Origin: Clavelina lepadiformis
Taxonomy: Eukaryota; Chordata; Ascidiacea; Aplousobranchia; Clavelinidae
Assembly (NCBI RefSeq): GCF_947623445.1
Contig: NC_135244.1
Coordinates: 1,178,001-1,242,000 of the forward strand
DNA: 64,000 nt
Direction of reading: 5' to 3'
A program made the position numbers and the translations under genes. Positions within the stretch are counted from its first letter, which is position 1. Every line of letters starts with the position of its first letter. Under the pieces are notes generated by a model that made no database searches, had not been told where the DNA came from, and saw only the letters and a list, made by a program, of their open reading frames with translations. Shown piece after piece: positions 19,539 to 64,000 of this stretch.

Positions 19539-19660
19539 TGACGTCACGTTTCACGAAAGGGGTATATTCCAGTAGTGGTGCGACGTGATTGGCTGAGAAA
19601 TCAAATGGAATTTTTTACTTCGTTCTAATTGTCTTCATGTGCAATCTGATTGACTGGAAG
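19539..19660 (+). promoter_or_regulatory. Promoter module of homeobox unit A
   Basis: A perfect CRE (TGACGTCA) at 19539-19546 is followed by an inverted CCAAT box GATTGGCT at 19587-19594 and a weaker GATTGACT near 19649. The same order of CRE and inverted CCAAT boxes occurs upstream of units B, D, E, F and G, which supports a shared ancestral promoter. Binding by CREB/ATF and NF-Y type factors is inferred from the motifs. Confidence 0.55.
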
Positions 19661-21308
19661 TCCGCAATCCAGTACTTAGTTAAAAACTGTTGTTCAGTTG
19701 ACTGAGGTGCTTCTTTCGGTTAGCAGAGCCAATTATTGTGAAGTATTTCTTTCTGAAAAGTTTTTTTTGTAAGGTTTGTCACAAATTCCCCTGTAAAACT
19801 TGAAGAAACCTGTTGTTGACGGCTTAAATAACAGTTGCTGTTATGTCTTGTACAAATATTGCCTCATAACGGCCGCTGACATGATGGCTTTATATCTTTG
19901 TTAACCGTTTTTCAATGTAGCTAAACTTTATGAACTGAAGTAGTCGCAGGTTTCACCCTTAGGCTACCTGACAAATAAAAAACAATATTATTGAACTCGA
20001 AGTTTTGAAATTGGCTGTACAAGGTATTTTCAGCGTTGACTCGCAGACAAGTTGGTCAGAATTTAGCTTAGTTTGCTATAAATGTCATGTCTTATCATTT
20101 TTTCGTTCATTACATGCATGCAGATTTGGTTTAACACTGTGGCGTAATTGACTTTTTCTTCAAGTTCTTTCTTGTTTTGCGTTATGGTTTCAGGTATACT
20201 GTAATGCCCAAACGTCCAGTGTTTTCCACTAAAAAGTAGCTAAGATCCACAACAACAATTTACTGCTCTTTAATAGACAGTCCTAAATTCTGCAGTTTGG
20301 CCAAGTTAAACGTATTTTTATTCTTGTTCTTCAGACAATTTAAAGATGATTTTTCATTCATCGAAGTAACAAAAGCGTGTGCTTTAAAACGTAATTCTTC
20401 GATGTCTCTAAACAATTTGTGAATTTTCCTAAACAGTCTTTTGCCAAGTCAGTTAAAGGAATACTTGTGTACAGCTCTATAGGCAAGTTGAGCAAAGCGC
20501 GTTTCAGACTTAGGTCATTTGGTCAGCTCAGTGTGGTGGAATGAGTAAATGAAGTAAATTTGCAGAGCAGAAAATGTTGAAACTTACAACGTTACACCAT
20601 GAACCCTTAAAATCCCTCTTCTTTGGATTGCGATCGGGATTGCAATTAATTTTCGGTCATCTGTAATTTCGTGGTTATGTTCTATAAAAAAGGTGAATTA
20701 GGTTCGTGCAATGCAAGGAATGGTCACTTGACCCAAAATGTTCATCCATTGATACAGTCGTTTGAGTGAAGTTCTACTCAGGAAATCGAACCTCAGTGGA
20801 GTTATTCCTACGTGTGGAGAGTTATTTTATTACTTTGGAAGATTTGTTTTATCGTTTGGGAAGATCACTTTGTCACGTTTGTCACGATCACTTAAACTCA
20901 CTTTGTTAGTTCAATTAAGTTCATTAGGAGTGGGTCAGCCGAAGAAGCTGCAATTCTGTTTTAAGTTTTTGCGTCTGTCCGCCCAAAGCGGTTTAAAGGC
21001 TCTGGTCCGGGTTTGTCTGGTTCAGTGAAGAAACACAGTAAAGATGAAACAGTTTAAAAAGTTGGTATGGTTACAGATGTTACGTTTGACTTAGGTGTAA
21101 ATGATTTAATTTGGTTAGGTTCAAAATTATATCGCTGCTGGAAACTTTAAACAAAGTAAAAGCAGCCTTTTCAAGCTTAGCAATATCAGTAAGTTCATTA
21201 ACTCGATACGCTGATGTAAATGCAACAAGTTCAGTGACAACAAATAACTCAGCAGAAGAGAAACACAAGTAATTTTTTTCGTTTATTTCTACAGCAGAGA
21301 GAAAGAAA
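19661..21308 (+). other. Probable 5' UTR and leader intron of unit A
   Basis: No separate gene is seen. In units B to G the first coding exon is only four bases and lies about 0.1-0.15 kb before the next exon. A matching ATG-G-GT exon was not found here with confidence. An ATGA-GTAAAT near 20540 would keep phase but is speculative. Confidence 0.35.
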
Positions 21309-22566
21309 ATGATGTCTCAAAAAGGAACTTTATTTGAACACCCTGGAAACAACGTGATAAGCGACCAAAGTTCAGCGAGTTTACCGTCGTTACCGGGCGC
21401 TGCATCAATGGTCGCATCACACTCTGGGAGTTCTATGATTGTGACGTCGACAAGCAGCTCAACCTACGTTATGAGTGACCTGACGGTTGGCGGTGTACGG
21501 TCGAACTTCAACTATATTTCTAACCAGGGTCAAGGTCAAAGATCAGCTGTGACGTCGACAACGGGTAGTGCGAGTTACAATGGCGCTGCAGTCATAAATT
21601 CCACACCAGGTACAGCATTCCACATAAATAAGTTAACATGTTCAACAAAATACTAATAATTTGCGGCGTTGCAGGTCTTCAGATGGTTGAGCAATCAATT
21701 GGAATCAGTGGACAACCTTCGTCAAACTCATTTTTCGTACCATCGGCTCCACCAATGTTTCGGCCAGTCCCTCGCAGATTTACAACAAACCTGATTCCAA
21801 CTGACACTGTGACCTACGTTGAAATGGATTCCAACGGTGTACCACAAATTTTACATCATAATCCTTACTTGCCTCCAACGACCGCGATGCCACCGACATA
21901 TACTGCAAGTGCGTTCAGCATGTCCACACCGAGTGCCTTCGCTTCATACATCTTTTTCAAAACGTTGTTTAAACCCAGTGAAAAGTTTAACACTTAAGCA
22001 ATGAAACAACGACCAACCAAGTTTTATTTTTTAGATCATCAGAGATTTGGAAATTCAATGAGAACCAGTGGCCAAGCTTGGTCGAGACCATCATTTGTAC
22101 CATGGGCGGCACCAACTCAATTTAATAACTTTCCTGTAATTCGGGCACCGACAACAGCTGTTGTGAGTGGCTGTAGCTGTAGTGGCACAAGCAGAAGTTT
22201 CGGAGGCGTTTGTGACGGTCAAACAGCAAGTGTGACGTCAACAGGGAACAGTGCAAGTTCGGTTCAGGCCACACCGTTCAGCTCTGCCCAAGGTACTATT
22301 TCTTGATAAAAAATATTATAATAGTTTTATAGTAAGGCAATTCGTAACTTCAGATTTGTTTTTCAGCAAATAACTTGCAACACAAGTGGAGAAAGAAAAC
22401 AGTTTATTCAAGAAAGCAATTGAGGGCGTTGCAGGACGCGTTCAGTCGAGATGTCTATCTTACCGCCGCCAAGAAAAAAGAACTTGGGGAACAGATCGGT
22501 TTAACCGAACGTCAAGTTATAGTGTATTTTGACAACCATCGCCAAAAACTGAAAATTAACACGTAG
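21309..22566 (+). CDS. Divergent homeobox protein, unit A
   Basis: Exons 21309-21609, 21675-21908, 22035-22292 and 22367-22566 join in phase 1 to give 330 residues. The first three exons are rich in Ser, Thr and Asn. Exon 1 has the family block SNFNYISNQGQGQ, and exon 2 has VTYVEMDSNGVPQILHHNPY. The last exon is a homeodomain (from KKTVYSRKQLRALQDAF to QVIVYFDNHRQKLK). Its spacing matches Antennapedia one-to-one without gaps, but Trp48 is Tyr, position 50 is Asp and 53 is Arg; Asn51 is kept. The sequence before the ATG (a CAG, then AGAGAAAGAAA) reads in the same phase as exon 2 of the other units, so an upstream mini-exon is possible. The donor of exon 2 (GCAA-GTGCGT) is the least certain border. 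The likely role is a nuclear transcription factor. This is the most divergent member of the array. Confidence 0.75.
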
Positions 22567-22964
22567 AAGAAAGTTACCCCGCCGGAATCCATGAAGTTTT
22601 TGACGAACTCGAAGGCAGCTTGCTAATATGCATCGTTCAGCTCATCAGCCATAATATCGACATCTTATATAAACGAACGATGTCTTTACTGGGCGATGTG
22701 AATCGAAGTTAAGTTATGTCGAACACAATCTGCACTTAACACCACATGCCGTTACCTTTCAAGGCAAGTAGGCTTGAGGCAAATACTATGTACAAATGGT
22801 TTCACTGAAACTAACTATCTACTAAAGTGTTCCAGTTAAAGTATTTGTGTTCTTGCAGCTTGCTTCCAATAATGCGACAGAAATTGCACAAACAGATTTT
22901 ATTGCATATTGTATATTTTACCGTATATGGTTCGTTCGAAATGTTTTAATGTGTTTTACCGCGA

Positions 22965-22970
22965 AATAAA
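22965..22970 (+). terminator. Polyadenylation signal of unit A
   Basis: AATAAA lies about 400 bases after the stop codon, in a context (TGTTTTACCGCGAAATAAAAAC) that aligns with the 3' flanks of units B, C, F and G. Confidence 0.55.
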
Positions 22971-23404: not shown

Positions 23405-23730
23405 AATCCGACCCTCACGCATGCTGAATCTCTGCATATAGTTCATACAAAACAGTTCCTTGCTTGTTGTACTTCTATTAGTTTTATTTGAGATTTTCCA
23501 ACAATTGTCGCTCACGTCACGTTAAAAAAGCATTACGAAAGATATGCTGTTGTACATCTTAACTCAGTAGTTATCATGATCAAACTGATGACGTCAGTTT
23601 TTCTGACTCGATTTTATCTACGTACCAGCGTAAAGTGATTGGCTAGAAATTACCTATTGGAGATTTTGTGATTTATTTCTTACTGTTTTTCTTTACAATT
23701 TGATTGGCTGCAGGGTTACATAAAACGCGT
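23405..23730 (+). promoter_or_regulatory. Promoter module of homeobox unit B
   Basis: The block starts with the shared CCTCACGCATGCTG boundary. It has a CRE (TGACGTCA) at 23589-23596, inverted CCAAT boxes at 23637-23644 and 23702-23709, and a TATA-like TTACATAAAAC at about 23716. The same elements occur in the same order in units D and G and, on the other strand, in E and F. Confidence 0.6.
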
Positions 23731-24941
23731 TTCGTGAAAAAATGTTCTTCATTTTGCTGCAACGCTTCGTTGTGTAAGCACTGCAAGGTAATGTTTTAGT
23801 ACAAACTACTTTTTTGTACTACGTTTGTTTGCTTGTTTGGAACTTGAAATATGTTGTTGTTGAAGTTATATTGAATTTGGCTTAACGTTCAATCCTGTGG
23901 TAGCAACAGATAGTAACTTTGTTTTGCCTGAAAATTGGAGGAATTTGTTGCGCTATTTGTTATAAGTTTATTTGAAACGGCCTATTGGAGGTATGCAAGT
24001 TGCTGGAAATTATGCTTTAGGCTACTAGGATTTTGCGTGTGATGAATCAGTAAACTGCAGCTTGCCAAAATTCCAAGGTCGGATTTCTGCTTCCAACATT
24101 GATTAACTTGCGCATAGCCAGCGCCCAGCTAACTCAAGTAGCCTAGCTCGAAAATGCAAACCATATACAGTATTTATTCTATCTGTCAACGATTCTACGA
24201 CAGTGTTCAACGAAACTTTCTTGTCGGCTTCGAGTAGTCTAATCTTTGCAGCAGGAGATGGTTCGCTTGTCACTCACCAACAAGTCTTCTAAGCAGTGCA
24301 AGTGTAAATGAAAACTCCTTCAAGCTTAGTTTAATTTTTGTCACTGTTTGTGGAAAACCTATTACTTTTTCAAGACCTTAAAAGGTGCCGAATATTCCAA
24401 GTGTATAACCTAACCTTTCCACGAATGTTTCCACGTGTAGTCATCAGATCCAACGATTCAATGCTATTTTGGGTTCTGTGGCTTGAGATCCAAAAATCAG
24501 AGAAATGTGCACTTGATCAAAGTTGATGCATCACTTAAGAGCATTTCCTTTTTCATGACAAGTCAATAATCTGTGTGGACGTTTGGGAACTCAGAATTTT
24601 GGGCATTTTCATGACGTATGTTTTGATACTTTCGAACATTTTGTTGTTTTTGTGAACGCTTTTTGCTTCTTCCAAGATTTATTTTTGCTTTTATGGTATT
24701 TTACATTGCCTCTAAAAAGAAAAGGAGCTACCAAATGTAAGGCTTTCTGGTAAATGTGAGCCACAGTCACCAAATTATTAGCTTAATTCTTATTATTGTT
24801 ACAGATTTAATGTTTTAGTTAATAGATGTTTAGTTTTTAGATAAATTTGACTCCAATTTGCTGGACAATTCCCACTGAATACCAAAAGTTAATATTAAAG
24901 CAAGTGTTTGATGCTGACTTGTTTACTTTACAATTGTTAAA

Positions 24942-26499
24942 ATAGGTAAGTATGGGATGGTATAAGCTTACTGGTTTTGTAAAGTTTACCATCATGGCTA
25001 GGTCTCATTTGAGTACATTCACAGTGAAAATATAAGGCAGCGACGATATATTTTAACATTTTCATCAGAGCAAACAAAAATGAAAGCAAGCGGAAAAAGT
25101 TCATCATCTGAAGACAGAGAACTTCCCTCAATCGATACCAGCGACCAATCTTCGTCAAGTTCGTTATTGGAATCATCAGCTGCACCGGTAGTTTTACAAC
25201 AACCAACCTCTAAAAGTTTGACGCCGACAGTCCACGTGTCCAGTAGTGAAACAACAGCTGTAAGTGAGTGGAGCTCTAGCAGGGTAAGTAGAAGCTTCAA
25301 CTATATTTCTTATCAGGGACAAGATGAAAAACCAACAGCTACGTTATCTGAAGACAGAAGTGGACCTTCCAGTGAAGCAACGGCCAGAAACTTCCCGCTT
25401 GGTAAGTTATATAACAAGTAATTTAACGGAAATATTGTTGAAATCCAAATATTATTTTATAGTTGATCGGAAGAACTCAAACATGAACTGTATTCTTCAG
25501 ATCCCCAGACAGTTGAGAGTACAATGGAACCCGGCAACCGAGCTTCAAGTTCTTTACCGGTTTCGTTGCCACACCCTTTATTGGCTCCGAATTACGCATT
25601 AATGATGCTAACACTGCGAAATTTGTCTAACATCGTGACATACATTGAAGTAATTGACGGTGTGAGCAGAGTTTTACATCACAATCCTCACATGCCTCCG
25701 GATCAATTCCCATACACAACACCAGCAACAGAGCGCGTAAGTGTCAATCAAGCTGTGGTTAACGAGTTTATTCTGGGTACCATAGTAAGTATTTCGCAGG
25801 AAAACACGACACCAAGTTTATCTTTGGCATCATTGTTCCCATCAATGATCCCACCACAAGCCCGAAGCTATTCTTCAAATCGGACGTCGACTATCAACGT
25901 CACTTCCACTGAAAGCAATGTCGTGAGTAGACGTGTAGCTTAATAGCTGCCCGAGGAGAAATTTCAACTATGTTTTTAATTTGAGCCAAAGTCACAGAAC
26001 AAATGCAACATTGGCCGCAAAACAAGAAAAAAATGTTTCCACCTACAGCCAGCATGTTAGCGCTGTTTAAGTCCAAAGTAAAATTCTAACTTTCCTTTTC
26101 AGCAAGTCATTCCACCCTTGGAAAGTCAAATATCAACTAGTACGGCAGCTACAAACAGCGCAATTTGGGATCAAGCCACGGACAAAAACACCACGCCTGG
26201 TACCGCTGTTCGATAGAAATCATTTAAAGATTTCTATTATTCTTGGACCCTAATCACAAGTTCTCTTTTTAATAGAAAAACGGCAACCCGGACCAAGATC
26301 GAGAAGTAAGTTCACCGATTTCCAGGTAAATATTTTAGAAGCAGCATATGCTCGCAACAAGTCCCTTTACCGTGGAAGGAAACAAGTCATTGCGGAGGAG
26401 GCGGATCTTACCGAACCACAAGTACAAGCGTGGTTTAATAATAAACGCCAAAGAGAGTCAAAATTAATGAAAACGCCTAAAAAGCCCAGCAGCAAATAA
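24942..26499 (+). CDS. Divergent homeobox protein, unit B
   Basis: Coding exons are 25069-25401, 25501-25736, 25800-25922, 26103-26199 and 26276-26499. With a four-base first exon at 24942-24945 the chain would give 338 residues, but that exon reads ATA-G where the other units read ATG-G. Translation may therefore start at the ATG at 25081. Exon 3 has TYIEVIDGVSRVLHHNPHMPP. The last exon encodes a homeodomain from RSRSKFTDFQVNILEAAY to QVQAWFNNKRQRESK with Trp48, Asn51 and Arg53 kept, which makes it the most canonical HD1 in the array. The intron at 25737-25799 is only 63 bases, a multiple of three without stop codons, so it could be retained. The likely role is a DNA-binding transcription factor of an orphan class. 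Confidence 0.75.
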
Positions 26500-26738: not shown

Positions 26739-26739
26739 C

Positions 26740-28479: not shown

Positions 28480-29255
28480 TAAGTCTTCGGAATCATTGAA
28501 ATATAAAGCCACCTGATGATAATACTTGCAACTTCATAATATATCAGGACAAAAATTAAGGCAATGTTTCCAACCACATCAACATTTGTAATTCAACCAG
28601 TTATTTAATCTGTATTCAATACTTTGTTTTGTCTGGTTGTCCTGATGGTTGTCTAAATTTTTGTGTATTGTTAACTTGAGCAGTTAACAGTTTCTTGATA
28701 AAGTCAATTTGTGTAGGTTTGGCGTGATGTCATTGAACATTTTACCATGAATCGTTTTTAAGGAAAATGAATCCCGAAAAAAATTGCCACTTCTGCACAT
28801 TTTGAAATGAAGTTTCCTATAATATAATTTCTATTTGATATTCTGAAGTATATCACAAGATGAACAAAGAAAGGTTGCAAAGAAATCAGATTGCTGCTTA
28901 ATGCGACCTTACAATAAAGTTTGTTTATACAACCTGACAAACATTTAGTAAGTTGAAGATAATTTAAATTTGTTTTTTTGATCATCATTAAAAATGGTGT
29001 AATATAGATATTGATACAATTTGTGCAAACATGAAAATTGACTGAGTGCATATACACCAGATATCATCATTCTTCGGTTGCATTTAACATAATAAAGATG
29101 TTATATCTGAAAAAAGTATGATGACAAATTATTAGAAATGTGGTACAGAAAAGGTGTATGCAAAAATTCAGGCAGGATCACGAAAAGAGCAAGAAAAAAA
29201 ACTTATCTAAAAATGCACGCAGACAACAAGCTTGATAGCCTTGTCTTGAGTTTCG
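28480..29255 (+). repeat. Locus-specific spacer repeat, plus-orientation copy
   Basis: About 0.8 kb that recurs inverted at 38.94-39.33 and 39.90-40.30 kb, and partly in the same orientation at 53.33-53.87 kb. Shared landmarks include CCACTTCTGCACAT, GATATTCTGAAGTATATCAC and AACTGTTTAA-type tracts. It has no coding capacity and marks duplicated blocks of the homeobox array. Confidence 0.7.
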
Positions 29256-29268
29256 TCAACTTGTTTAA

Positions 29269-30290
29269 CCCTAGAATGCATACATGAAAAAACTTACGCT
29301 AATGCATAACAGGGGTCATTTTGACCCGTAATGCTATTACATGCAATTCTACTTTAAAGAAATTGAATGTTTTTCTTCTTGTTCTTTCCTTGTCTCTTCC
29401 GTTGGTGTTATGATGACATATGTACAGTTTTTGCTGCGTTTTAATGAAACAATCGACGAAAAACAGTATAAAGAAGTCGATGAGAAAATGAAAGAAAAGT
29501 CCAAAACAGTTCACATTACAACGAATAGCCTGAGTCATTCACTGCATTTGTTGCATGTGATCATGGTCACGCTGTGCTTTGGACACACGGGTCTGCAACA
29601 TTTTGCAACTAACTTTCTTATCCTTTGCGTGTGGACATAAGGAACATCGCTTCTACTGCTGCAACGTGTTTGCTGTTTGCAGGTATGTACTTGGAGAAGC
29701 TAAGTCACATCTCACCATAGCCTCTCTTGTGGCTCTGTGGAGTTGAGGAATTTTCTGTCTTGTCATCATGTGGGGCAAAATGAGGCAGTTAGCAAGATCT
29801 GTTATGAAACCTCGTCGCTTTGAACCTTGTCCACTCTGATAATCAGGATATACTTGTCTGCATATGGTATATGCATTTAGAGCTGCGATGTCGAGCAGAG
29901 TGTAAAAGAGAACTAGAGGCCATCGGCGGGTTTGTCGTTTGCAAGTATATGTTTGAACCATTTGGCCAACCAAGTGAACACCAATCTTTGTCTTGTTATA
30001 AAACCTGATGATCTCAGGCCTCTTTTTTGTGTCTTCTTCGTCAATGCTTATATCGTGATGCATGCTGCGGGTCAAAATGACCCCTGTTATGCATTCTAGG
30101 GGTATTTAATGAAAAATGCATTTTTCTTGTCAAAGGTAAAATTTTACAGAACAACCGTTTTCTCATCATGTATAAGTATAAAAGGCTAACAAAGTCAAGA
30201 AAATCCAGGAGTTAATTCACAATATGTGTTAAGCAGTTACGATGAATAGCAACGTTTGGGTCATTTTGACCCCTGTTATGCATTCTAGGG
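29269..30290 (-). mobile_element. piggyBac element, internally deleted
   Basis: The ends are CCCTAGAATGCATA and TGCATTCTAGGG, flanked by TTAA at 29265-29268 and 30291-30294, the exact signature of piggyBac. The palindromic GGGTCAAAATGACCC lies inside both ends, and a third end-like copy sits at about 30062-30101. The minus strand 30075-29653 encodes the C-terminal part of the transposase (RPEIIRFYNKTKIGVHLVGQ, later RRWPLVLFYTLLD). The third catalytic Asp, normally in GVD, is His here. A TAG comes before the Cys-rich C-terminal zinc-binding part, which continues after it with a frame change. The N-terminal two thirds are absent, so it could move only with help from another copy. Confidence 0.9.
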
Positions 30291-30294
30291 TTAA

Positions 30295-30557
30295 GAATGC
30301 AAACAAACTTGTCAAATATAAGCATCAGCGAATATTATGACTTTTAAATAAGTTAAAACATTTGGATGTGCGCTGGGTATCTATTTCATAAATAACAATT
30401 TTTTTCCGGCAGTTAAAAGCTCTGAATATTGCTTATGCTTATGGCTTTAAGATTGCAGCTGTCATGCCTGTTGGCCAATAGCGTATCCTCGTAGGCCTAA
30501 CCTATACCGGGACTTTATATCTATCATTTAAGATATGATTTATACACGAACCTCACG
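30295..30557. other. Spacer between piggyBac and the Mutator-like element
   Basis: This is array flank sequence. The 10-bp GAACCTCACG at 30548-30557 is the left target duplication of the next element and belongs to the start of the promoter block continued at 32789. Confidence 0.55.
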
Positions 30558-32789: not shown

Positions 32790-33100
32790 AACCTCACGCA
32801 TGCATTCTATGCATACATATCATACAGAACAGTTCCTGCTTATTGTAATTTTCTTTTTTTTATTTGAGATGTTCCAACAACTGTCGCTCACGTAGCGTTG
32901 AAAGTGCATTAAGAAAGCTTTGCTAGTGTACATCTAAACTCAGTAGTTATCACAATCAAACTGATGACGTCATTTTTCCTGCCGCGGTTTTATCTACGTA
33001 CCGGCGCAATGTGATTGGCTATAAATCACCTATTGGAGAATTTGTAATTTATTCCTTACCGTGTTTCTTTACAATGATTTTTGCAAAGTTATAAAAGACC
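32790..33100 (+). promoter_or_regulatory. Promoter module of homeobox unit D
   Basis: It resumes the CCTCACGCATGC boundary cut by the Mutator-like element. A CRE lies at 32965-32972, an inverted CCAAT box at 33013-33020 and a TATA-like TTATAAAAG near 33090. The second inverted CCAAT box seen in B and G is weak here (GATTTTTGC). Confidence 0.5.
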
Positions 33101-33940: not shown

Positions 33941-34215
33941 ATGGGTAAGTTTTAGATGGTATAAGCCTACTTTATTTCATGTCATGTTGGTGTTGTGATG
34001 TTTCCCATCCTAGCCAAGTCTCATCTGAATGTATTCACAGTGAAAATACAAGCGGCAACGACGATATACTTCACCATTTCATTACAAAAAGAAAATCAAA
34101 CCAAGCGGAAAAAGATCATTATCTGAAGACATAAATTCCCTCAATCGAATTCCAGCGACCTTGTTTCGTTAAATTCATTATTGGTATCATCAGCAGAACC
34201 GGTAATTCTACTTCA
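33941..34215 (+). pseudogene. Truncated homeobox unit D
   Basis: The four-base first exon ATG-G with GTAAGT is kept at 33941-33944. The second exon has lost its CAG acceptor (CATTACAAAAAG instead of CATCAGAG), is frameshifted (GAAGACATAAATTCC) and stops at about 34215, where unrelated inverted flank sequence begins. No homeodomain exon follows. Confidence 0.75.
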
Positions 34216-34223
34216 ACCTCATG

Positions 34224-38924: not shown

Positions 38925-38936
38925 GCAATCAGATTT

Positions 38937-51394: not shown

Positions 51395-52767
51395 TTTAAA
51401 AGCTGTAAAACCGACAAGTCAGCATCGAACACATTTGGTACTCTGTAATAAAAATGTAATCATTTCGTCAAATTAATCAAAAAACAAATAAAATCTGAAT
51501 CTGTAACAACAATAACAATTAAGCTCATAAGATGTTAACGCCTCATAGTGCCTCATTAAGCTAATCAAATATTGTCTAAACAAAATTTAACGGCTCATAG
51601 TGCGCCGCTAACTGCTTCTCCTACTTTACAGGCAATGTAGGAAAAGAATAAACATAAATTTCATCCCAACTTAATAGTTAGAGTTGTGCAAAAGTACAAT
51701 TCTAAATTAAAAATTGAATTCGACAATTTGAACTGAAACCAACGTTAGAACTAATGGTATTGCCAAACTTATCCTGCAAGTTAAGGTGAAAGGAAAGTGA
51801 GAAGCAAAAAGCGTTCACAAAAGTGAACGAAATGTTCGAAAGTACCAAAACACATATCACGAAAATGCCGAACCTCAGTAGTACCAAAATGTCTGTATGG
51901 ATTATTGCCTTGTCGTTGAAAAGGAAAATGCTTGCTTAAATGTACTGTATCTCCTTTAATGAAGTTCACATTTTCCCTATTTTTGCAAGCTCAAGCCACC
52001 GAATACACAGTAGCATTAAAACGTTGGATCTGATGACTACACGTAGAAACATTCGAACAAATAGTAGTTGAATATCCTTGGATTTTTCGGCATCATTCAA
52101 AGTCTCAAGAAACCAACAGGTTTTATACAAACAGTGATTTGAATTAAAAGTAAGTTGAATGAATTTTCACACTCCACAACAGACATGTTGGAGTGACACG
52201 CAAACTACCACCTGCTGCGAATATTTACACTTAAAGTCCGCTCGGAGACAACAAGAAAGTATTCTTGAACACTGTCGTAGAATCGTTGACAGGCAGTATA
52301 AATACTGTGTACAGTTTGCTTTAGTTCAGGTAGGCTACTAGGATCGCCTGGCTGGCTACGTGCAATTTATGAATGTTGGAATCAGAACTTTGATCTGGGA
52401 AATTTTTGCAAGCTGTTGTTTGATAATTTATCACACGCAAAACCCTCGTAGCCTAAAGCAGAATTCTCCAGCTACTTGTATAACTCAAATAAGCCATTTC
52501 AATTAAACAAAGAGCAAAAAACATCGTTCAGTTGTTAGGCTGAACAAAGTTATTATATGTAACTACTATAGGCAACGAATGTTATGCCACATTTATAACA
52601 ACTTCAACAGCAAGATATCTGAAGTTCCGTGTAGAAACAAGCCGCAAAACTTATATCAATGATGAAATAGTTTGTACTAAAGCATTAGGTGCAGTGCTTA
52701 AACAACGAAGCATTGTAGCAAAATGAACGACTTTTTTTCACAAAAGACCTTTTGAATAACTTTGAAA
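51395..52767 (-). other. Unit F 5' leader region
   Basis: Aligns, inverted, with the leader regions of units B and G (for example the CGTAGAATCGTTGACAG stretch at 52270). No separate gene is seen. Confidence 0.5.
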
Positions 52768-52888
52768 CCAATCACATTGTAAAGAAACACAGTTAGAAAT
52801 AAAATCAAAAAATCTCCAATAGGTGCTCAAATAGCCAATCACATTGCGCCGGTACGTACATTAAAGTGTCTCAGAAAAAGTGACGTCA
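52768..52888 (-). promoter_or_regulatory. Promoter module of homeobox unit F
   Basis: Given on the plus strand: CRE TGACGTCA at 52881-52888, CCAAT boxes AGCCAATC at 52833-52840 and ACCAATC near 52768. The TATA-like site seen in B and G is degenerate here. Confidence 0.5.
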
Positions 52889-52989
52889 TCAGTTTGATTG
52901 TGATCATTACAGAGATTAGATGTACAAGAGTAAATCCTTCATAATGCTTTTCAACACTAAATGAGCGATAACTGTTGAATCATCTCAAA

Positions 52990-54230
52990 TAAAAGCAACT
53001 AAAAGTACAAGAGGTAAGGAACTGTTTTGTGTGTTCTTTTTTGTATGACGTGTATGTATATGTATAAATTATATCTTAATTGATAGATATCAAGGTCTGG
53101 TATAGGTTAGGCCTATGTGGACACGTTATTGGCCTACAGGCTAGACAGCTACAACCTTAAAACCGTAAACGGGAATCAGAATTAGGCTTATAACTACTGC
53201 AACGAAATTGTCTTTATGGTATTAATATCCAGTGAATATCCAAAGGTTGTAAATATTTATGAGGTCGTAATATTGGCAGATGGTTAGATTTGAAAAGTTT
53301 GTTTGCATTTTAAAACAAATTGTACATTTTACAATAAATCGCTTTTAAGGAAAATGTATCTGTATATGTTGATACAAAATTTCCAGTAAAATAATATCTA
53401 TTTGATATCCTGCAGTATATCACAACATGAACAAAGAAGTGTTCTAAACATGAGAATACTACTTAAGCCGAACCTACAGTGAACTTTGTTTATAAAACCT
53501 GAAAAAGATTTAGTAATTCGAAGACAATTTAAATTTGTTCTTTTCATCATCATCAAAATTGGTGTAATATATACAGTATATTAGCATAACTTATATAAAC
53601 ATGAAAATTGATTGTGCACATATGCTTTAGCTATCATCATTCTCCACTTGCACTTAACATAGTAAAGATTTTATGTAAAGGTGTTATATTTGAAAAACAT
53701 ATGATAACAAATTAATAGAAATGTAGTAAAAAAAATTTATACAAAAGTTCAGACAAGGTCACAATAATAGCAAAAAAGAAAAAATATATTTAACAATGCA
53801 CGCAGACAACAAGCTTGGTAACATGGGCTAGAGTAGTGAGGAATCATTTTCAAGTTTAAATCGTGAAAACTTTTCTCAGTCTGACGACAAATATTCCAAC
53901 ACCTTACCAACATTTGTAGTTACTTGTGAATCATATTTTAGTTTCAAGAACTTGTTTCAGAATGCAAACAAACTTGCCAAATTTTACCATCAGCCAATGT
54001 TATGACTTACAAACAATTTACAACATTTGGATGTCTACTGGGTATCAATTTCATAAAATACAATTTTTTCCCAGGAGTTGTAAGCCTATCTCTGAATCTG
54101 ACTTATGATTTTAAGGTTGTAGTTGTCTTGCCTGTAGGCCAATAGCGTGTCCTCGTAGGTCTAACTTATACTGGTACTTGATATCTATCATTTAAAATTT
54201 GATTTATACATAAAAAATTACCACACTTGA
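52990..54230. repeat. Spacer between the head-to-head units F and G
   Basis: The inner part, 53330-53870, matches the spacer repeat of 28.5-29.25 kb in the same orientation and that of 39-40 kb inverted. No gene is present. Both edges are the block boundaries that precede the promoter modules of F and G. Confidence 0.6.
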
Positions 54231-54418
54231 AACTGATCCAAACCTCACGCGTGCTGATTCTATGCATACAGTTCATACAAAACAGTTCATTGCTTGTTGT
54301 ACTTTTCGTTGTTTTATTTGAGATGTTACATCAATTTTCGCTCACTAGATGTTGAAAAAGCACTAGGAAAGATTTGCTGCTGTACATCTTAACTCAGGTG
54401 TGATCACAATCAAACTGA

Positions 54419-54557
54419 TGACGTCACTTTATTTTGAAGCGGTTTTATATACGTAGCGGCACAATATGATTGGCTGTTACCATTGGATTTGATTGGATTT
54501 TGTGATGATTTCTAACATGTTTCCTTACATTGTGATTGGCTGCAGGGTTATATAAAA
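54419..54557 (+). promoter_or_regulatory. Promoter module of homeobox unit G
   Basis: CRE TGACGTCA at 54419-54426, inverted CCAAT boxes GATTGGCT at 54468-54475 and 54534-54541, and a good TATA box TTATATAAAA at 54548-54557. This is the most complete version of the module shared by the array. Confidence 0.65.
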
Positions 54558-55853: not shown

Positions 55854-58800
55854 ATGGGTAAGTTTGGGATGGTAGAAGCTTACTTTATTGCATGTCATAT
55901 TGGTTTTGTAAAGTTTACCATCCTAGCCAAATATCATCTGAATACATTTACACTGAAAACATAAGCGGCAATGACGATATATTTTAACATTTTCATCAGA
56001 GGAAACAAAAACCAAAGCAAACGCAAAAAGTTCAACATCTGGAGACAGAGAAATTCCCTCAATCGATCCTAGCGACCATGCTTCGTCATGTTCGTTAATT
56101 ATATCACCATCTGCACCGGTAGTTTTACAACAACGTCACTATATACGTACCACGCCGACAATCAACGTGTCCTGCAGTGAAACAACAGCTGTAAGTGAGT
56201 GGACCTGTAGCAGGGTAAGTGGAAGCTTCAACTACATTTGTTACCAGGGACAAGATGAAAAACGAACAGCCATGATCTCTGCAGATAGAAGTGGACATCC
56301 CAGTGAAGCAACGGCCAGAAGCTTCCCGGTGGGTAAGTGTAATATAACAAGTAATTTAACAGAATTATTGTTGAAATCTAATCAATTTTTTATATTAGAA
56401 TGAAAAAAACTCAAAATTGAATTGTAATCTTCAGATCCCCAGACAGTTGAGAGTACATTTGAACCCGGCAATCGAGCTTCAAGCTCTATGCAAGTTCCGT
56501 TTTCGGCGTCAGTGATTCAACCGCCTATACAATTTCCGTCAGGTTCTTCATCTTACGCATCAATGACGCCACCACCGCGAAATATGATTAGCAGCGTGAC
56601 ATACGGTGTAAGCAGAGTTTTGCATTACAATCCTTACTTGCCTCCAGATCAAAACCCAAATACAACGCTAGCAACAGAGAGCGCAAGTTTCAATCAAGCT
56701 GTGGTTAGCAAGTTTCTTCTGGGTACCAAAGTTTTAGCACAAGCATTATATAGTAGGCTAACTTTTTTCATTATTGAAACCGCAGGAAGACACGCCAAAA
56801 AAGATATTCTCACTCGGCAACCAGGAAGTCGAACGTTCAGACGAAGCCAGCCAACAAGCTTCGTCAAGTTTATCTTTGGAACCATCGTCTTCATCAATGC
56901 TCCCACCACAATCACAAAACTCTTCTTCAAGCCTGACGTCGACTATCAGCACCATCTCCACTGAAAGCAATGTCGTGAGTAGGCGTGTAGCCTTACAGCA
57001 GCTTGTACAGACGTTTCAGTTATATTTCTTACTAAAGCCAATGCTACACATGAACGGCAACATCGGCTACAAACTAAGAGCATATGTTTGCACCTGCAGC
57101 CAACTTGTTAGTGGTGCGTAAATCAAAACTATAATTCTAACTTGCCTTTTCAGAACATCATTACGCTCTTCGAAGGTAAAAAATCAAATCTGACGTCAGC
57201 CACAAACAGCACATGTTCGGGTCAAGCCACGGTCACCAACACCACGCCTGGTACAGTTGTTCGATAGAAATAATTTTAAGAGTTTTAATATTTGTAAACT
57301 CATAATGACATGCTCGTTTTTAGCAAAGAACCCGCAACCCGTGCATAAAAAAAACAAAAAACTTACCGACGAACAGTTAAAGGCTTTGCAAGAGAAGTTT
57401 GATCACGACAAATACTGTTGGCAAGGAAGAAAAAAGGTTATTGCGGAGGAGAACAATCTTTCCGAAATGCAAGTAGAAAATTGGTTCAGATACAACAGGA
57501 GGAAGTCAAATAAGTTAGGAGAGGAAAAAACGTCACAAAACCCAGAAACGAACAAGGATGTTTCTGACGAGACCGAACGAAGCTATAGAGCTTCGACCAG
57601 ATCGTCGGTCCCAGAGACTTCACCACAAGTACAACTTACGTTAAGTTCTTGGTCGGTTCCGATTTCGTCATCAGGGACTTCACCACAAGTACAATATTCG
57701 TCAGGTGGTTGGTCGGTTCCGATTTCGTCATCAGGGACGTCACCACAATTACAACATTCTTCAGGTGGTTGGTCACTCCCGATTTCGTCATCAGGGACGT
57801 CACCACAATTACAACGTTCTTCAGGTGGTTGGTCGGATCCGATTTCGTCATCAGGGACTTCAACACAAGTACAATATTCGTCAGGTGGTTGGTCGGTTCC
57901 GATTTCGTCATCAGGGACTTCACCACAATTACAACATTCTTCAGGTGGTTGGTCGGTTCCGATTTCGTCATCAGGGACTTCACCACAATTACAACATTCT
58001 TCAGGTGGTTGGTCGGTTCCAATTTCGTCATCAGGGACTTCACCACAATTACAACATTCTTCAGGTGATTGGTCGGTTCCGATTTCGTCATCAGGGACGT
58101 CACCACAATTACAACATTCTTCAGGTGGTTGGTCGGTTCCGATTTCGTTATCAGTGACGTCACCACAATTACAATTTTCTTCAGGTGGTTGGTCGGTTCC
58201 GATTTCGTCATCAGGAACTTCACCACAATTACAACATTCTTCAGGTGGTTGGTCGGTTCCGATTTCGTCATCGGGGACGTCACCACAATTACAACATTCT
58301 TCAGGTTGTTGGTCGGTTCCGATTTCGTCATCAGGGACTTTACCACAATTGCAACGTTTTTCAGGTGGTTGGTCGGTTCCGATTTCGTCATCAGGGACTT
58401 CACCACAATTACAACCTTCTTCCGGTGGTTGGTCGGTTCCGATTTCGTCATCAGGGACTTCACCACAATTACAACATTCTTCAGGTGGTTGGTCGGTTCC
58501 GATTTCGACATCAGGGACTTCACCACAATTACAACATTCTTCAGGTGGTTGGTCGGTTCCGATTTCGTCATCAGGGACTTCACCACAATTACAACATTCT
58601 TCAGGTGGTTGGTCGGTTCCAATTTCGTCATCAGGGACTTCACCACAATTACAACATTCTTCAGGTGGTTGGTCGGTTCCAATTTCGTCATCAGGGACTT
58701 CACCACAATTACAACATTCTTCAGGTGGTTGGTCGGTTCCGATTTCGTCATCAGGGACTTCACCACAATTACAACATTCTTCAGGTTGTTGGTCGGTTCC

Positions 58801-61800
58801 GATTTCGTCATCAGGGACTTCACCACAATTACAATATTCTTCAGGTGGTTGGTCGGTTCCGATTTCGTCATCAAGGACTTCACCGCAATTACAACGTTCT
58901 TCATGTGGTTGGTCGGTTCCGATTTCGTCATCAGGGACTTCACCACAATTACAACATTCTTCAGGTGGTTGGTCGGTTCGGTTTTCGTCATCAGGGACTT
59001 CACCACAATTACAACATACTTCAGGTGGTTGGTCACTTCCGTTTTCGTCATCAAGGACTTTACCACAATTACAACATTCTTCAGGTGGTTGGTCGGTTCC
59101 GTTTTCGTCATCAGGGACTTCACCACAATTACAACATTCTTCAGGTGGTTGGTCGGTTCCGATTTCGTCATCAGGGACGTCACCACAATTAATTTTTTCT
59201 TCAGGTGGTTGGTCGGTTCCGATTTCGTTGTCAGGGACTTCACCACAATTACAACATTCTTCAGGTGGTTGGTCGGTTCCGATTTCGTCATCAAGGACTT
59301 CACCGCAATTACAACATTGTTCAGGTGGTTGGTCGGTTCCGATTTCGTCATCACGGACGTCACCACAATTACAACGTTCTTTAGGTGGTTGGTCGGTTCC
59401 GATTTCGTCATCAGAGACGTCATCACAATTACAACATTGTTCAGGTGGTTGGTCGGTTCCGATTTCGTCATCACGGACGTCACCACAATTACAACATTCT
59501 TCAGGTGGTTGGTCGGTTCCGATTTCGTCATCAGGGACTTCGCCACAATTACAACATTCTTCAGGTGGTTGGTCGGTTCCGATTTCGTCATCACGGACGT
59601 CACCACAATTACAACGTTCTTCATGTGGTTGGTCGGTTCCGATTTCGTCATCAGGGACTTCACCACAATTACAACATTCTTCAGGTGGTTGGTCGGTTCG
59701 GTTTTCGTCATCAGGGACTTCACCACAATTACAACATACTTCAGGTGGTTGGTCACTTCCGTTTTCGTCATCAAGGACTTTACCACAATTACAACATTCT
59801 TCAGGTGGTTGGTCGGTTCCGTTTTCGTCATCAGGGACTTCACCACAATTACAACATTCTTCAGGTGGTTGGTCGGTTCCGATTTCGTCATCAGGGACGT
59901 CACCACAATTAATTTTTTCTTCAGGTGGTTGGTCGGTTCCGATTTCGTTGTCAGGGACTTCACCACAATTACAACATTCTTCAGGTGGTTGGTCGGTTCC
60001 GATTTCGTCATCAAGGACTTCACCGCAATTACAACATTGTTCAGGTGGTTGGTCGGTTCCGATTTCGTCATCACGGACGTCACCACAATTACAACGTTCT
60101 TTAGGTGGTTGGTCGGTTCCGATTTCGTCATCAGAGACGTCATCACAATTACAACATTGTTCAGGTGGTTGGTCGGTTCCGATTTCGTCATCACGGACGT
60201 CACCACAATTACAACATTCTTCAGGTGGTTGGTCGGTTCCGATTTCGTCATCAGGGACTTCGCCACAATTACAACATTCTTCAGGTGGTTGGTCGGTTCC
60301 GATTTCGTCATCACGGACGTCACCACAATTACAACGTTCTTTAGGTGGTTGGTCGGTTCCGATTTCGTCATCAGAGACGTCACCACAATTACAACATTCT
60401 TCAGGTGGTTGGTCGGTTTCAATTTCGTCATCAGGGACTTCACCACAATTACAACATTCTTCAGGTGGTTGGTCGGTTCCGTTTTCGTCATCAGGGACTT
60501 CATCACAATTACAACATTCTTCAGGTGGTTGGTCACTCCCGATTTCGTCATCAGGGACTTCACCACAATTACAACATTCTTCAGGTGGTTGGTGGGTCCC
60601 GATTTCGTCCTCAGGGACGTCACCACAATTACAACATTCTTCAGGTGGTTGGTCGCTTCCGATTTCGTCATCAGAGACTTCACCACAATTACAACATTCT
60701 TCAGGTGGTTGGTCGGTTCCAATTTCGTCATCAGAGACGTCACCACAATTACAATATTCTTCAGGTGGTTGGTCGGTTCCGATTTCGTCATCAGAGATGT
60801 CACCACAATTACAACATTCTTCAGGTGGTTGGTCGGTTCCGATTTCGTCATCAGGGACTTCACCACAATTACAACATTTTTCAGGTGGTTGGTCGGTTCC
60901 AATTTCGTCATCAGGGACTTCACCACAATTACAATATTCTTCAGGTGGTTGGTCACTCCCGATTTCGTCCTCAGGGACGTCACCACAATTACAACATTCT
61001 TCAGGTGGTTGGTCGGTTCCGGTTTCGTCATCAGGGACTTCACCACAATTACAACATTCTTCAGGTGGTTGGTCGGTTCCGATTTCGTCATCAGAGACGT
61101 CACCAAAGTTACAACATTCTTCAGGTGGTTGGTCGGTTCCGTTTTCGTCATCAGGGACTTCACCACAATTACAACATTCTTCAGGTGGTTGGTCGGTTCC
61201 GATTTCGTCATCAGGGACGTCACCACAATTAATTTTTTCTTCAGGTGGTTGGTCGGTTCCGATTTCGTTGTCAGGGACTTCACCACAATTACAACATTCT
61301 TCAGGTGGTTGGTCGGTTCCGATTTCGTCATCAAGGACTTCACCGCAATTACAATGTTCTTCCGGTGGTTGGTCGGTTCCGATTTCGTCATCAAGGACTT
61401 CACCGCAATTACAATGTTCTTCCGGTGGTTGGTCGGTTCCGATTTCGTCATCACGGACGTCACCACAATTACAACGTTCTTTAGGTGGTTGGTCGGTTCC
61501 GATTTCGTCATCAGAGACGTCACCACAATTACAACATTCTTCAGGTTGTTGGTCGGTTCCGTTTTCGTCATCAGGGACTTCATCACAATTACAACATTCT
61601 TCAGGTGGTTGGTCACTCCCGATTTCGTCATCAGGGACTTCACCACAATTACAACATTCTTCAGGTGATTGGTCGGTCCCGATTTCGTCCTCAGGGACGT
61701 CACCACAATTACAACATTCTTCAGGTGGTTGGTCGCTTCCGATTTCGTCATCAGAGACTTCACCACAATTACAACATTCTTCAGGTGGTTGGTCGGTTCC

Positions 61801-61963
61801 AATTTGTCATCAGAGACGTCACCACAATTACAATATTCTTCAGGTGGTTGGTCGGTTCCGATTTCGTCATCAGAGACTTCACCACAATTACAACATTCTT
61901 CAGGTGGTTGGTCGGTTCCAATTTCGTCATCAGAGACGTCACCACAATTACAACGTTCTTTAG
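55854..61963 (+). CDS. Homeobox protein with giant Ser/Gln/Trp repeat tail, unit G
   Basis: Exons are 55854-55857 (ATG-G), 56000-56332, 56435-56682, 56786-56974, 57154-57250 and 57324-61963. Phases match and give 1836 residues. The donor after 56682 is GC (AGC-GCAAGT) where other units have GT; GC-AG introns are a known minor class. Exon 3 has the TYGVSRVLHYNPYLPP version of the family motif. The last exon holds HD1 (KKLTDEQLKALQEKF to EMQVENWFRYNRRKSN) with Trp48 and Arg53 but Tyr at 51. About 70 in-frame 20-residue repeats follow, rich in Ser, Gln and Gly with one Trp each (core GGWSVPISSSGTSPQLQHSS). A one-base deletion at about 61805 shifts the frame and a TAG follows at 61961-61963; without it the repeat frame would run to 62473. 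The strand is fixed by homeodomain and exon phases. The likely role is a nuclear regulator with a very long disordered tail. Confidence 0.75.
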
Positions 61964-62640
61964 GTTGTTGGTCGGTTCCGATTTCGTCATCAGAGACGTC
62001 ACCACAATTACAACATTCTTCAGGTGGTTGGTCGGTTCCGTTTTCGTCATCAGGGACTTCATCACAATTACAACATTCTTCAGGTGGTTGGTCACTCCCG
62101 ATTTCGTCATCAAGGACTTCACCACAATTACAACATTCTTCAGGTGGTTGGTCGGTCCCGATTTCGTTCTCAGGGACGTCACCACAATTACAACATTCTT
62201 CAGGTGGTTGGTCGCTTCCGATTTCGTCATCAGAGACTTCACCACAATTACAACATTCTTCAGGTGGTTGGTCGGTTCCAATTTCGTCATCAGAGACGTC
62301 ACCACAATTACAATATTCTTCAGGTGGTTGGTCGGTTCCGATTTCGTCATCAGAGACGTCACCACAATTACAACATTCTTCAGGTGGTTGGTCGGTTCCG
62401 ATTTCGTCATCAGGGACTTCACCACAATTACAACATTCTTCAGGTGGTTGGTCGGTTCCAATTTCGTCATCATAGACTTCACCACAATTACAATATTCTT
62501 CAGGTGGTTGGTCACTCCCGATTTCGTCCTCAGGGACGTCACCACAATTACAACATTCTTCCGGTGGTTGGTCGGTTCCGATTTCGTCATCAGGGACTTC
62601 ACCACAATTACAACGTTCTTCAGGTGGTTTGTCGCTTCCG
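57601..62640 (+). repeat. Coding minisatellite, about 84 units of 60 bp
   Basis: The period is exactly 60 bp for more than 4 kb without a length change, until a single-base deletion at about 61805. Substitutions are concentrated at a few positions (for example GGGACTT/GGGACGT/GAGACGT and CATTCT/CGTTCT). The first units (57601-57900) are the most divergent. The unit has no stop codon in most frames, so long open frames exist on both strands; only the one continuous with the homeodomain has independent support. Confidence 0.95.
58861..60300 (+). repeat. Higher-order repeat: two 720-bp blocks of 12 units
   Basis: 58861-59580 and 59581-60300 are nearly identical unit by unit, including rare variants such as the GGTTCGGTTTTCGTC step, the CATACT unit and the AATTAATTTTTT unit (59190, 59910). 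A partial third block reuses the last markers at 61141-61320. Eight-unit blocks also repeat at 61561-62039 and 62040-62520. Confidence 0.9.
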
Positions 62641-62775
62641 CCATATTCAGCCATAGACCGCAACAATTTTGGTCAAGCAACAATCATTAACAAATTCCGA
62701 ATATATTGGTTTCTCAAAAACTATTTTAATATTTTTATAATAAATCACCTCATATTAACACGTTCGTTTTTTTAG

Positions 62776-63245
62776 CACCAAAACGAAAAACAACCGGGGA
62801 CGAAATGAGAACTGAACTCGATCGTGAACAATCAGAAATGCCCCAAAGTGGATTTAGTCCTAACCCGGCTCTTTCCAAACGAAGAAAACAGTAAATTGCA
62901 ATCTTACCTTCGTGGTGTAATAATAATCGACATAAATTAAAAGTCAAGATGAACGAAAACGCCACAAACCCAGACGCGACGATTCAGAATAAGGTCAATA
63001 TGCTTGGTCCAGCTCTTCGGCGTTACCATGACCATGACCATGACCATGACCATGACCATGACCATGACCATGACCATGACCATGACCATGACCATGACCA
63101 TGACCATGACCATGACACTGAGATTCACTCGCAGACGGAGATCGTGATCAACCATACTGCGCCAACCACTGTGGGCTGTAGTAAAACTGATGACGTAAGC
63201 AATGTCGTTCGCCTTCCTCAAAAAGACCGCGATTCGCGAAATTAA
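62776..63245 (+). pseudogene. Broken HD2 exon of unit G
   Basis: After a TTTTTTTAG acceptor the sequence aligns with the HD2 exon of unit C: the part for the homeodomain start and the FSPNPALSKRRKQ-like stretch is there, then a TAA interrupts it. The middle, with the recognition helix, is deleted, and only NNRHKLKVKMNENA follows in another frame. The tail (DTEIHSQTEIVINHTAP) is kept and ends at 63243-63245. It is entered in phase 1 like HD1, so it was once an alternative last exon. Confidence 0.7.
63025..63114. repeat. Fifteen ACCATG hexamers in the HD2 tail relic
   Basis: Perfect hexamer repeat, read as alternating His-Asp. Unit C has only a single HEHD at the same place, so the expansion is recent and specific to unit G. 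Confidence 0.9.
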
Positions 63246-63299
63246 CATAAGATGCCGTACTCTCAAGAAACGTCTAAAAATGGGTCCTTCTTAAACTGT

Positions 63300-64000
63300 G
63301 TTTCTATAACCGTTTGTGTTTGCCTGTATGTTATTTAAATTGAGAAAACTTTTCAGATTTTATGGCCATTTTAGTGCTCACGTGAAATATTTTCATGTGT
63401 TTTACCACAAAATACAAACAATATTTTTAAATTTATTGTTCTTTAAGAAAGGATTTACAAGCGGTGCACACTGAAACGCTGCCGTAAACGAAAATTATAT
63501 TTGCATATGAACTTTATTTCAGAAATAACTTCAACTCAGTAACATTAAACAGAAGTATGGTCAATTAGCTACTGATTTAAAACCTGTTACAAGGCTGCAG
63601 ATTGTTTCACAGGGAGTTTGTCTTTCATTATTTAGCAAATGGTTTTTGAAAGCACTAAAATCATGTTGGACCCTGATACAATTGTTTGGGAGCATGGCTA
63701 CACTGCAGGTGTTTCAGTATGAGGCTCATTGTTGTTAGTTTTGTGCTTGGACATGCGTTCAGAAATACAAACGTGAGAATGCGTTTCCATTGTTGTATTT
63801 CTTTGTGTGCAACATCATCTAAGTTAGATTTCAAAGCAGGAAGGTTTTTGGTTGGCTTAGGTGTCCACTGCAGGGAAGTATCCAGCTACGTGTTGTTAAT
63901 TTTGCTTAAATTAAGATTATCTTATTCCAAAATTATACCTTTGCGGTTAGAGTCCTACGCAATATAATATTTGTTTATCAGAAATTTTCACTGTTGTGTT
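63300..64000 (+). other. Unit G 3' flank
   Basis: 63355-63760 aligns with the 3' flank of unit B at 26600-27000 (TTTAAATTTATTGTTCTTTAAGAAA). The AATAAA of unit B reads CCGTAAAC here. No further gene is supported up to the window end. Confidence 0.5.

Follow-up and report, generated by a model that had tools for sequence, protein, structure and literature searches.

Fast-diverging homeobox arrays on chromosome 5 of the ascidian Clavelina lepadiformis and their possible descent from Cdx

Units, promoters and extent of the arrays

We analyzed a 64,000-nucleotide stretch of the genome of the aplousobranch ascidian Clavelina lepadiformis (the window), which a genome search mapped to chromosome 5 (C5), positions 1,178,001-1,242,000, of the 209-Mb assembly. 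The window contains seven related homeobox gene units, with U1 to U3 and U7 on the forward strand and U4 to U6 on the reverse strand; a preliminary description of this DNA had counted at least six, on both strands. U2 to U7 could be aligned as DNA, and U1 was matched through its protein and promoter. The homeodomain, which had been placed in the last exon, is found there in six of the seven units (not in U3), and two broken second homeodomains are also present. Features of the window are numbered below from its first nucleotide; loci of array A and positions marked C5 are chromosomal.

Together with copies beyond the window, the units form an array of ten (array B) that extends to approximately C5:1,259.5 kb, as counted from nine places with the promoter module described below plus U4, which lacks it. 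N-terminal exons of the family gave 13 and 12 matches in genome searches (E values up to 1), all confined to C5:1,199-1,258 kb and none outside that interval, and exon 5 matches (8 in number) reached 1,259.5 kb. A profile grown from four homeodomains of the window gave eight hits within it, broken ones included; two further array B homeodomains, at 1,246 and 1,252 kb, came from the six-frame Pfam search described below. The profile also revealed a second array (array A) at C5:847-924 kb, with 35 homeodomain hits at 34 loci and repeated triplets of homeodomains spaced 4 to 7 kb apart. One further copy in array B carries a stop. At C5:886583-886741 (reverse strand), an inverse-oriented array A tail match with no listed homeodomain is probably one more unit. 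In a six-frame genome search (E values up to 0.001), the Pfam Homeodomain family (PF00046) had at least 24 matches in array A and 8 in array B, counted per exon; these amount to 32 of the 116 genome-wide and lie within 0.2% of the genome. The curated Pfam score was exceeded in U4, U5, and U7, and all six homeodomain-bearing units were detected by the six-frame search.

The shared promoter motifs claimed beforehand were confirmed in six of the seven units. The exact 12-mer CTGATGACGTCA, a cyclic AMP response element (CRE), occurs once per unit at 19535, 23585, 32961, 48168 (reverse), 52881 (reverse), and 54415, U4 being the exception. With one mismatch allowed there were 12 matches against 0.16 expected, a number reached in 0 of 100 shuffles; the other six lie away from the unit starts. 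An ATTGG box follows CTGATGACGTCA at 49 to 50 nucleotides (nt) in all six promoter-bearing units, and a second one lies approximately 66 nt further on in U2, U5, U6, and U7. Genome-wide, 12 of 18 matches to the promoter pattern fall in the arrays (three in A and nine in B) and six elsewhere, and the reversed-pattern control gave two. The array A copy at 921956 precedes a homeodomain that adjoins MED31. Several extra TGACGTCA sites were observed at 14142-15561; their immediate context recurs at C5:1,011-1,029 kb, and they probably belong to a separate repeat.

The forward-strand units U1 to U3 differ in completeness. U1 (19535-22566) has a promoter module (19535-19594), exons at 21295-21609, 21675-21908, and 22035-22292, and a homeodomain exon (22367-22566) that keeps the asparagine at homeodomain position 51 (Asn51). 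U2 (23585-26499) has a promoter (23585-23709), a first exon whose start codon has been lost to ATA (24942-24945), exon 2 (25069-25401), fused exons 3 and 4 (25501-25922), exon 5 (26103-26199), and a homeodomain exon (26276-26499), again with Asn51. U3 (32961-34221) is truncated: a promoter (32961-33020) and an ATG-G exon (33941-33944) are followed by the start of exon 2 only, with no homeodomain.

The three reverse-strand units retain different homeodomains, designated HD-a and HD-b. U4 (40931-43232) has no promoter module and consists of exon 1 (43229-43232), exon 2 with a frameshifting 16-nt deletion (42767-43086), exon 3 (42346-42665), exon 4 (42102-42290), exon 5 (41816-41915), and an HD-b exon with Asn51 (40931-41367), HD-a having been deleted. 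The U5 promoter (48054-48179) comprises a CRE (48168-48179) and ATTGG boxes (48120-48129 and 48054-48063). Its body (45111-46765) comprises exon 1 (46762-46765), an in-frame fused exon 2/4 (46427-46620), exon 5 (46148-46247), and an HD-a exon (45111-46072) with proline in place of Asn51 and repeats like those in U7; a broken HD-b with internal stops lies at 44816-44893. U6 has a promoter at 52766-52892 (CRE, 52881-52892; ATTGG boxes, 52833-52842 and 52766-52775) and a body at 49720-51394, with exons 1 to 5 at 51391-51394, 50915-51247, 50519-50838, 50275-50463, and 50001-50094, and an HD-a exon (49720-49928) with tyrosine in place of Asn51.

U7, on the forward strand, is the longest unit. Its promoter (54415-54541; CRE, 54415-54426; ATTGG boxes, 54466-54475 and 54532-54541) is followed by a body (55854-61963) with exons 1 to 5 at 55854-55857, 56000-56332, 56435-56730, 56786-56974, and 57154-57250, the last of these carrying a Cdx C-terminal motif. 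The HD-a exon (57324-61963; Asn51 replaced by tyrosine) runs into a tandem array of 60-bp repeats that spans approximately 5 kb (57544-62600, ends approximate) and encodes 20-residue repeats in the frame of the homeodomain exon. A broken HD-b with an Asp-His-repeat tail follows at 62811-63245.

Coding evidence and turnover of copies

The exon features given in the preliminary description recurred in part of the family. U3 to U7 (5 of 7 units) have the four-base ATG-G exon with GTAA directly after it; U2 has ATA-G, and in U1 no such exon was found, an in-frame ATG lying inside exon 2. The quoted sizes of 333, 189, and 94 to 100 nt for exons 2, 4, and 5 apply to three, three, and five of the seven units, respectively. 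Exon 2 measures 333 nt in U2, U6, and U7, 315 nt in U1, and 320 nt (with the frameshift) in U4, and in U5 it is fused to exon 4. Exon 3 has 320, 320, and 296 nt in U4, U6, and U7, with a single remainder by three. Exon 4 has 189 nt in the same three units, and in U2 it is joined with exon 3. Exon 5 has 97, 100, 100, 94, and 97 nt in U2, U4, U5, U6, and U7, again with a single remainder by three. The remainders of introns 2, 4, and 5 vary among units.

Assembly of the spliced proteins, a check proposed in the same description, gave open predicted chains for U2, U5, U6, and U7 (359 amino acids without a start ATG, 419, 382, and 1,852 amino acids, respectively), with GT-AG borders, consistent phase, and a stop after the homeodomain. 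For U1, a four-exon chain is open given an assumed start. Because the exons keep their remainders by three, the length of exon 4 is fixed, and the fusions in U2 and U5 are in frame while the introns vary, there is modest support for coding.

Substitution rates between units, another proposed check, were close to neutral outside the homeodomain. The ratio of nonsynonymous to synonymous distances (dN/dS) in array B exons 2 to 5 was 0.68-2.37, at synonymous distances (dS) of 0.07-0.48; of 25 comparisons, 19 fell within 0.7-1.4, five above this range, and one below it. In the homeodomain exon, dN/dS was 0.22-0.73 at dS values of 0.68-2.8, and in array A it was 0.83, 0.81, and 0.70 for three homeodomain types. 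With ratios near 1, dN/dS was dropped as proof of coding for exons 2 to 5. A test based on indels in pairwise alignments, in which the gap length was divisible by three for 18 of 49 gaps in exons, 10 of 76 in introns, and 4 of 27 in homeodomain exons, was muddied by compensating gaps and likewise set aside. The open reading frame (ORF) of the U7 repeat tail was rejected as a sign of selection because the remaining frames and the opposite strand are open to a similar degree; unusual openness extends to several frames on the two strands, and the tail has no codon-position bias (92/80/97).

Exon 4 (42102-42290, 50275-50463, and 56786-56974) is more constrained in another frame than in that of the homeodomain chain (dN/dS, 0.28-0.89 versus 0.80-1.38). 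At the exon 3/4 junction, continuing into the homeodomain chain requires a weak donor (GTTTTA/GTTTCA); if GTAC/GTAT, 8 nt upstream, served as donor instead, the chain would terminate within exon 4. The constraint in a frame that ends before the homeodomain may reflect an alternative short isoform.

Ratios near 1 outside the homeodomain are also expected of decaying genes, and a mostly neutral tandem expansion, with many copies being decaying pseudogenes and few members that matter, would account for them as well as for the array A values (0.70-0.83). Such an expansion would also explain the truncated U3, the frameshifted U4, the startless U2, the further copy with a stop, and the unbiased U7 repeat tail. 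It is less easily reconciled with the homeodomain core residues, which are kept in 37 to 38 of 38 copies despite great divergence (partly through ascertainment), or with the lower dN/dS of the homeodomain exon. Exons 3 and 5 each hold one remainder by three, introns 2, 4, and 5 do not, and the promoter module is found at 9 places for 10 array B units. On balance, we consider a mostly neutral origin unlikely.

Different units of array B have lost different homeodomains. In U4 and in U9 (locus L018), exon 5 runs directly into the sequence that follows the homeodomain in U5 (scores of 143 and 89 versus shuffle means of 18), and no trace of HD-a was detected after exon 5 of U4 (18 versus 18.9 for shuffled sequence). 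U4 and U9 retain HD-b; U5 and U7 retain HD-a with stop-bearing remains of HD-b. Because different units kept different homeodomains, some with remains of the other, the ancestral array B gene probably had two. The greater similarity of the 5' halves than of the homeodomain exons suggests that the former may have been homogenized by gene conversion, and in mammalian TPRX genes the 5' region is reported to be more prone to gene conversion (PMC8208926).

Given dN/dS values of about 1 in exons 2 to 5 and several units that are broken, fused, or truncated, birth-and-death evolution with rapid divergence, as originally suggested, is supported. The individual events named at the outset are all real: U5 is fused in frame, U2 has lost its start codon, U3 is truncated, and U4 has lost both its promoter and a homeodomain. 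Our pairing of these events with the earlier unit letters is a guess. A dispersed repeat of approximately 0.75 kb (74 to 87% identity) lies between units at 28499-29251, 39544-40313, and 53319-53834, with pieces at 30291-30546, 38921-39305, and 53956-54210; it is possibly a substrate for unit duplication and inversion.

Probable kinship with Cdx

Cdx is among the well conserved animal patterning genes. The canonical gene is still present in C. lepadiformis, on chromosome 1 (C1:10847967), and with the arrays the genome holds more than one Cdx-like gene. The clearest relative is the array A gene at C5:924156. Outside the arrays, its homeodomain best matches Cdx (48% identity; E value, 1.1e-11), followed by Hox (3.2e-7). 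Compared with the genome's 25 other homeobox loci, its whole ORF gave an E value of 7e-26 for Cdx and 1.6e-11 for the next best locus. The tail after its homeodomain scored 105 against the Cdx tail (shuffles, 32.3; standard deviation [SD], 5.8; 0 of 3,000 as high). By sequence, this gene is clearly a derivative of the ParaHox gene Cdx. Among the genome's own homeobox loci, Cdx was clearly the best match for the array A ORFs 924156, 918066, 896426, and 906445, and it was also the best for U5 and U6 of array B.

Array B is connected through its fifth exon and its promoter. An ungapped pattern that exon 5 has in common with the C-terminal end of Cdx reads SATNS-7-VTNTT in U7, and when the Cdx C terminus was searched against the whole genome (E values up to 10), it recovered itself and U7 exon 5 (E value, 2.9), and nothing else. 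The score of exon 5 against Cdx was reached by 0 of 3,000 shuffles for U7, U6, and U5, by two for U4, and by one for U2; that of U7 was 64 (shuffles, 25.4; SD, 4.5). The array A tail at 847530 scored 58 against U7 exon 5 (24.6; SD, 4.3; 0 of 2,000). The homeodomain exon, judging from inferred acceptors, starts in phase 1, as in Cdx. The exon 5 motif ties array B to Cdx and the promoter module ties it to array A, two independent features from which we infer that array B is kin to Cdx; the rest of array A is probably kin to it as well.

Several observations weigh against this reading. Of the array ORFs, 38 in number, 15 had Cdx as their best match among the 25 other loci (13 of the 32 in array A and 2 of the 6 in array B; composition uncorrected). 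U4 and U2 favored posterior Hox, U1 was about as close to Hox as to Cdx, and U7 preferred a zinc-finger homeobox gene over Cdx. The best match of the U4 homeodomain outside the arrays was a posterior-Hox-like gene (38% identity; E value, 1.6e-7), with Cdx at only 1.2e-4, and in PDB Hox-B1, Gsx2, and Pdx1 (42 to 43 bits) ranked above CDX1 (33.5 bits). A homeodomain tree (81 rows and 61 columns), whose bootstrap did not settle, placed the arrays in no class. The exon 5 E value of 2.9 is not significant without its location. In 10 of 12 comparisons of array A tails with array B or Cdx, the result was unremarkable, the two standouts both involving U7 exon 5. Array A tails compared with Cdx gave an overwhelming score for 924156 and z values of 0 to 4.5 for the remaining 30 of 31; that of 918066 was not significant (325 of 3,000 shuffles). 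A genome search with an array A tail returned no array B exon at E values up to 10.

These observations raise the alternative that only array A derives from Cdx and that array B stems from another ANTP-class gene, e.g., Hox. The tree resolves no class, U2 prefers Hox, and the U4 homeodomain lies further from Cdx than from posterior-Hox-like, Hox, and Gsx genes, all as that alternative would predict. It leaves unexplained the match of exon 5 to the Cdx C terminus, that of an array A tail to U7 exon 5, the promoter module common to B and A genes, and the homeodomain exon phase shared with Cdx (inferred acceptors), and we regard it as doubtful. The initial statement that the family belongs to no named homeobox class is weakened for array A, whose nearest gene is plainly Cdx derived, and for array B through exon 5 and the promoter; it retains some force, as the array B homeodomains alone do not favor Cdx and the tree does not resolve them. 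The closest solved homeodomains were rejected as a class call for U4: a tandem engrailed construct ranked first, its two domains being summed, then Hox-B1, Gsx2, and Pdx1, with CDX1 lower, and no class emerged.

Homeodomain residues, a predicted MED31 fusion and proposed function

We examined 38 array homeodomains, the same set as in the tree, from which 851097 (N-terminal half out of frame), the broken 858305, 859022/859100, 1222816, and 1240811, and also 1246325 had been omitted. The core is nearly invariant (L16, 38; F/Y20, 38; V/I45, 38; W48, 37; F49, 38). Asn51, a DNA contact, is present in 8 of 38; in a comparison set made up of other homeodomains from this genome and of known ones, all 36 have it. 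It has been lost from 27 of 31 array A and 3 of 7 array B homeodomains. Arg5 persists in 15 of the 38, and positions 47 and 50 are scrambled. As the homeodomains were picked by profile search, the core conservation is partly built in, which counts against our reading; the loss of Asn51 is not. The predicted model of the U7 homeodomain, which has tyrosine at position 51, contains the three usual helices (mean predicted local distance difference test score [pLDDT], 84.2; predicted template modeling score [pTM], 0.66; six-row alignment). Its top PDB match was the Gsx2 homeodomain (template modeling [TM] score, 0.79), and the best 50 of 423 PDB matches (E values up to 10, none below 0.001) were homeodomain proteins by title or known identity, one designed protein excepted. 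The homeodomain fold thus seems to have been kept, and DNA reading has probably been lost in most members.

If most members had instead continued to act as sequence-specific transcription factors, in the early embryo or in the germ line, like moth Shx and mammalian ETCHbox/Obox, each homeodomain would have its own DNA site and the array would diversify targets. The architecture is the same as in those systems, Asn51 is retained in 4 of 7 array B homeodomains, and the array B homeodomain exons are more divergent than exons 2 to 5 (dS, 0.68-2.8 versus 0.07-0.48). The absence of Asn51 from 27 of 31 array A and 3 of 7 array B homeodomains, and of most of the usual residues at positions 47 and 50, makes this improbable in our view.

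In one array A gene, a homeodomain appears to be fused to a Mediator subunit. Of 11 genome matches to Med31 (E values up to 1), the 8 above the Pfam cutoff represent two exons each of four copies, all at C5:919.6-936.8 kb adjoining array A and the sole ones above that cutoff; the two stops flagged in these matches fall before exon 2, in intron sequence. In the copy at 923-924 kb, a single open exon encodes the homeodomain, followed by approximately 100 residues that resemble Cdx and then by MED31, beginning near its third residue. Joined to MED31 exon 2 by a predicted splice, it would encode a complete MED31 in frame, in a protein of 288 amino acids from the inferred start. Its MED31 part and the plain neighboring copy differ with a dN/dS of 0.23 (11 synonymous and 10 nonsynonymous changes in 95 codons). 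A second MED31 copy likewise lies behind a homeodomain (at 920776) and carries the shared promoter; its guessed splice is out of frame, so we claim only one fusion. By synonymous distance, the four MED31 copies (loci L039-L041) form two pairs (M1-M4, 0.19; M2-M3, 0.20; across pairs, 0.6-0.9), and one copy of each pair sits behind a homeodomain.

Because the core is preserved and Asn51, like other DNA contacts, is mostly gone, we think that most members act mainly via protein contacts. We put at roughly 55% the probability that array B is part of a large C5 homeobox complex descended from Cdx in which most members act in this way. Under this reading, a Cdx copy would have come to lie near MED31 and gained a promoter of CRE and CCAAT boxes. 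Tandem and inverted duplication would have followed, with homeodomains multiplying within genes (two ancestrally in B and sets of three in tandem A units) and later birth-and-death, perhaps with gene conversion of 5' halves. Intact units would encode a Ser/Thr/Pro-rich, probably disordered N terminus and one strongly diverged homeodomain. We infer that members would be coexpressed and that their homeodomains would fold but mostly not read DNA, so that most would compete with, or serve as adaptors for, canonical homeodomain factors and Mediator; DNA binding may persist in the minority with Asn51 (in the window, U1, U2, and U4). A speculative extension, to which we give little credence, is that the family gave up most DNA reading to become folded protein-contact modules plugged into Mediator. 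Starting with or working through the homeodomain-MED31 subunit, these would redirect or compete with Mediator and canonical homeodomain factors in an embryonic or germ line program.

Upstream of array B, the window contains a 475-amino-acid NACHT-domain ORF of an NLR-like gene (5823-7250, forward; Pfam E value, 3.4e-14) and a 2.7-kb head-to-tail duplication with 94.7% identity (7431-10146 and 10146-12857). Transposase fragments at 29653-30105 and 36990-37304 (both reverse) matched Pfam DDE_Tnp_1_7 (1.3e-8 and 5.9e-7), which we take to be of the piggyBac type.

The arrays combine tandem copies, fast divergence, and gain and loss, as do the Shx and ETCHbox families. The Shx genes of Lepidoptera, reportedly derived from zen (PMC9977156; PMC4207634), have expanded in tandem to up to 165 loci in one moth species and, like the Clavelina arrays, show fast homeodomain divergence from a conserved Hox-related gene (PMC9977156). 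Shx came from zen inside the Hox cluster; the Clavelina arrays are Cdx-like and do not share a chromosome with Cdx, and they differ further in their units with several homeodomains, the loss of Asn51, and the predicted fusion to Mediator. The mammalian ETCHbox/Obox/TPRX genes, derived from CRX, likewise arose by tandem duplication of a conserved homeobox gene, with divergence and gene loss; they are of the PRD class with known embryonic expression, and the available text mentions no counterpart of the Mediator fusion of array A (PMC8208926). HOPX is also reported to have a homeodomain without the residues needed for DNA binding and not to bind DNA itself; it is a single small gene, whose likeness to the arrays lies in the missing residues. 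Likeness to Cdx/caudal lies in the homeodomain and tail of 924156, the exon 5 motif of array B, and the phase 1 start, and the differences are the frequent loss of Asn51, the dozens of copies, and the new N-terminal exons. In Corella, Cdx is reported to lie on its own scaffold (PMC7337526). Among the literature matches listed (titles and abstract starts), none reported a tunicate or Clavelina homeobox or Cdx expansion or a MED31-homeodomain fusion, and those listed for the fusion do not mention MED31, so that absence from print is not demonstrated.

By sequence and analogy, the Clavelina array would be the same kind of event as Shx and ETCHbox with a different founder gene. If this is true, a chordate that keeps Cdx and yet turned a copy of it into approximately 44 homeodomain loci (intact and broken) would show that fast-evolving arrays can arise from a ParaHox gene, as they did from zen and CRX. 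The loss of Asn51 with an intact core would open to direct testing which properties of a homeodomain, apart from reading DNA, are under selection. A homeodomain in frame with a complete subunit of Mediator would serve as a natural experiment in coupling a regulator directly to the machinery of transcription.

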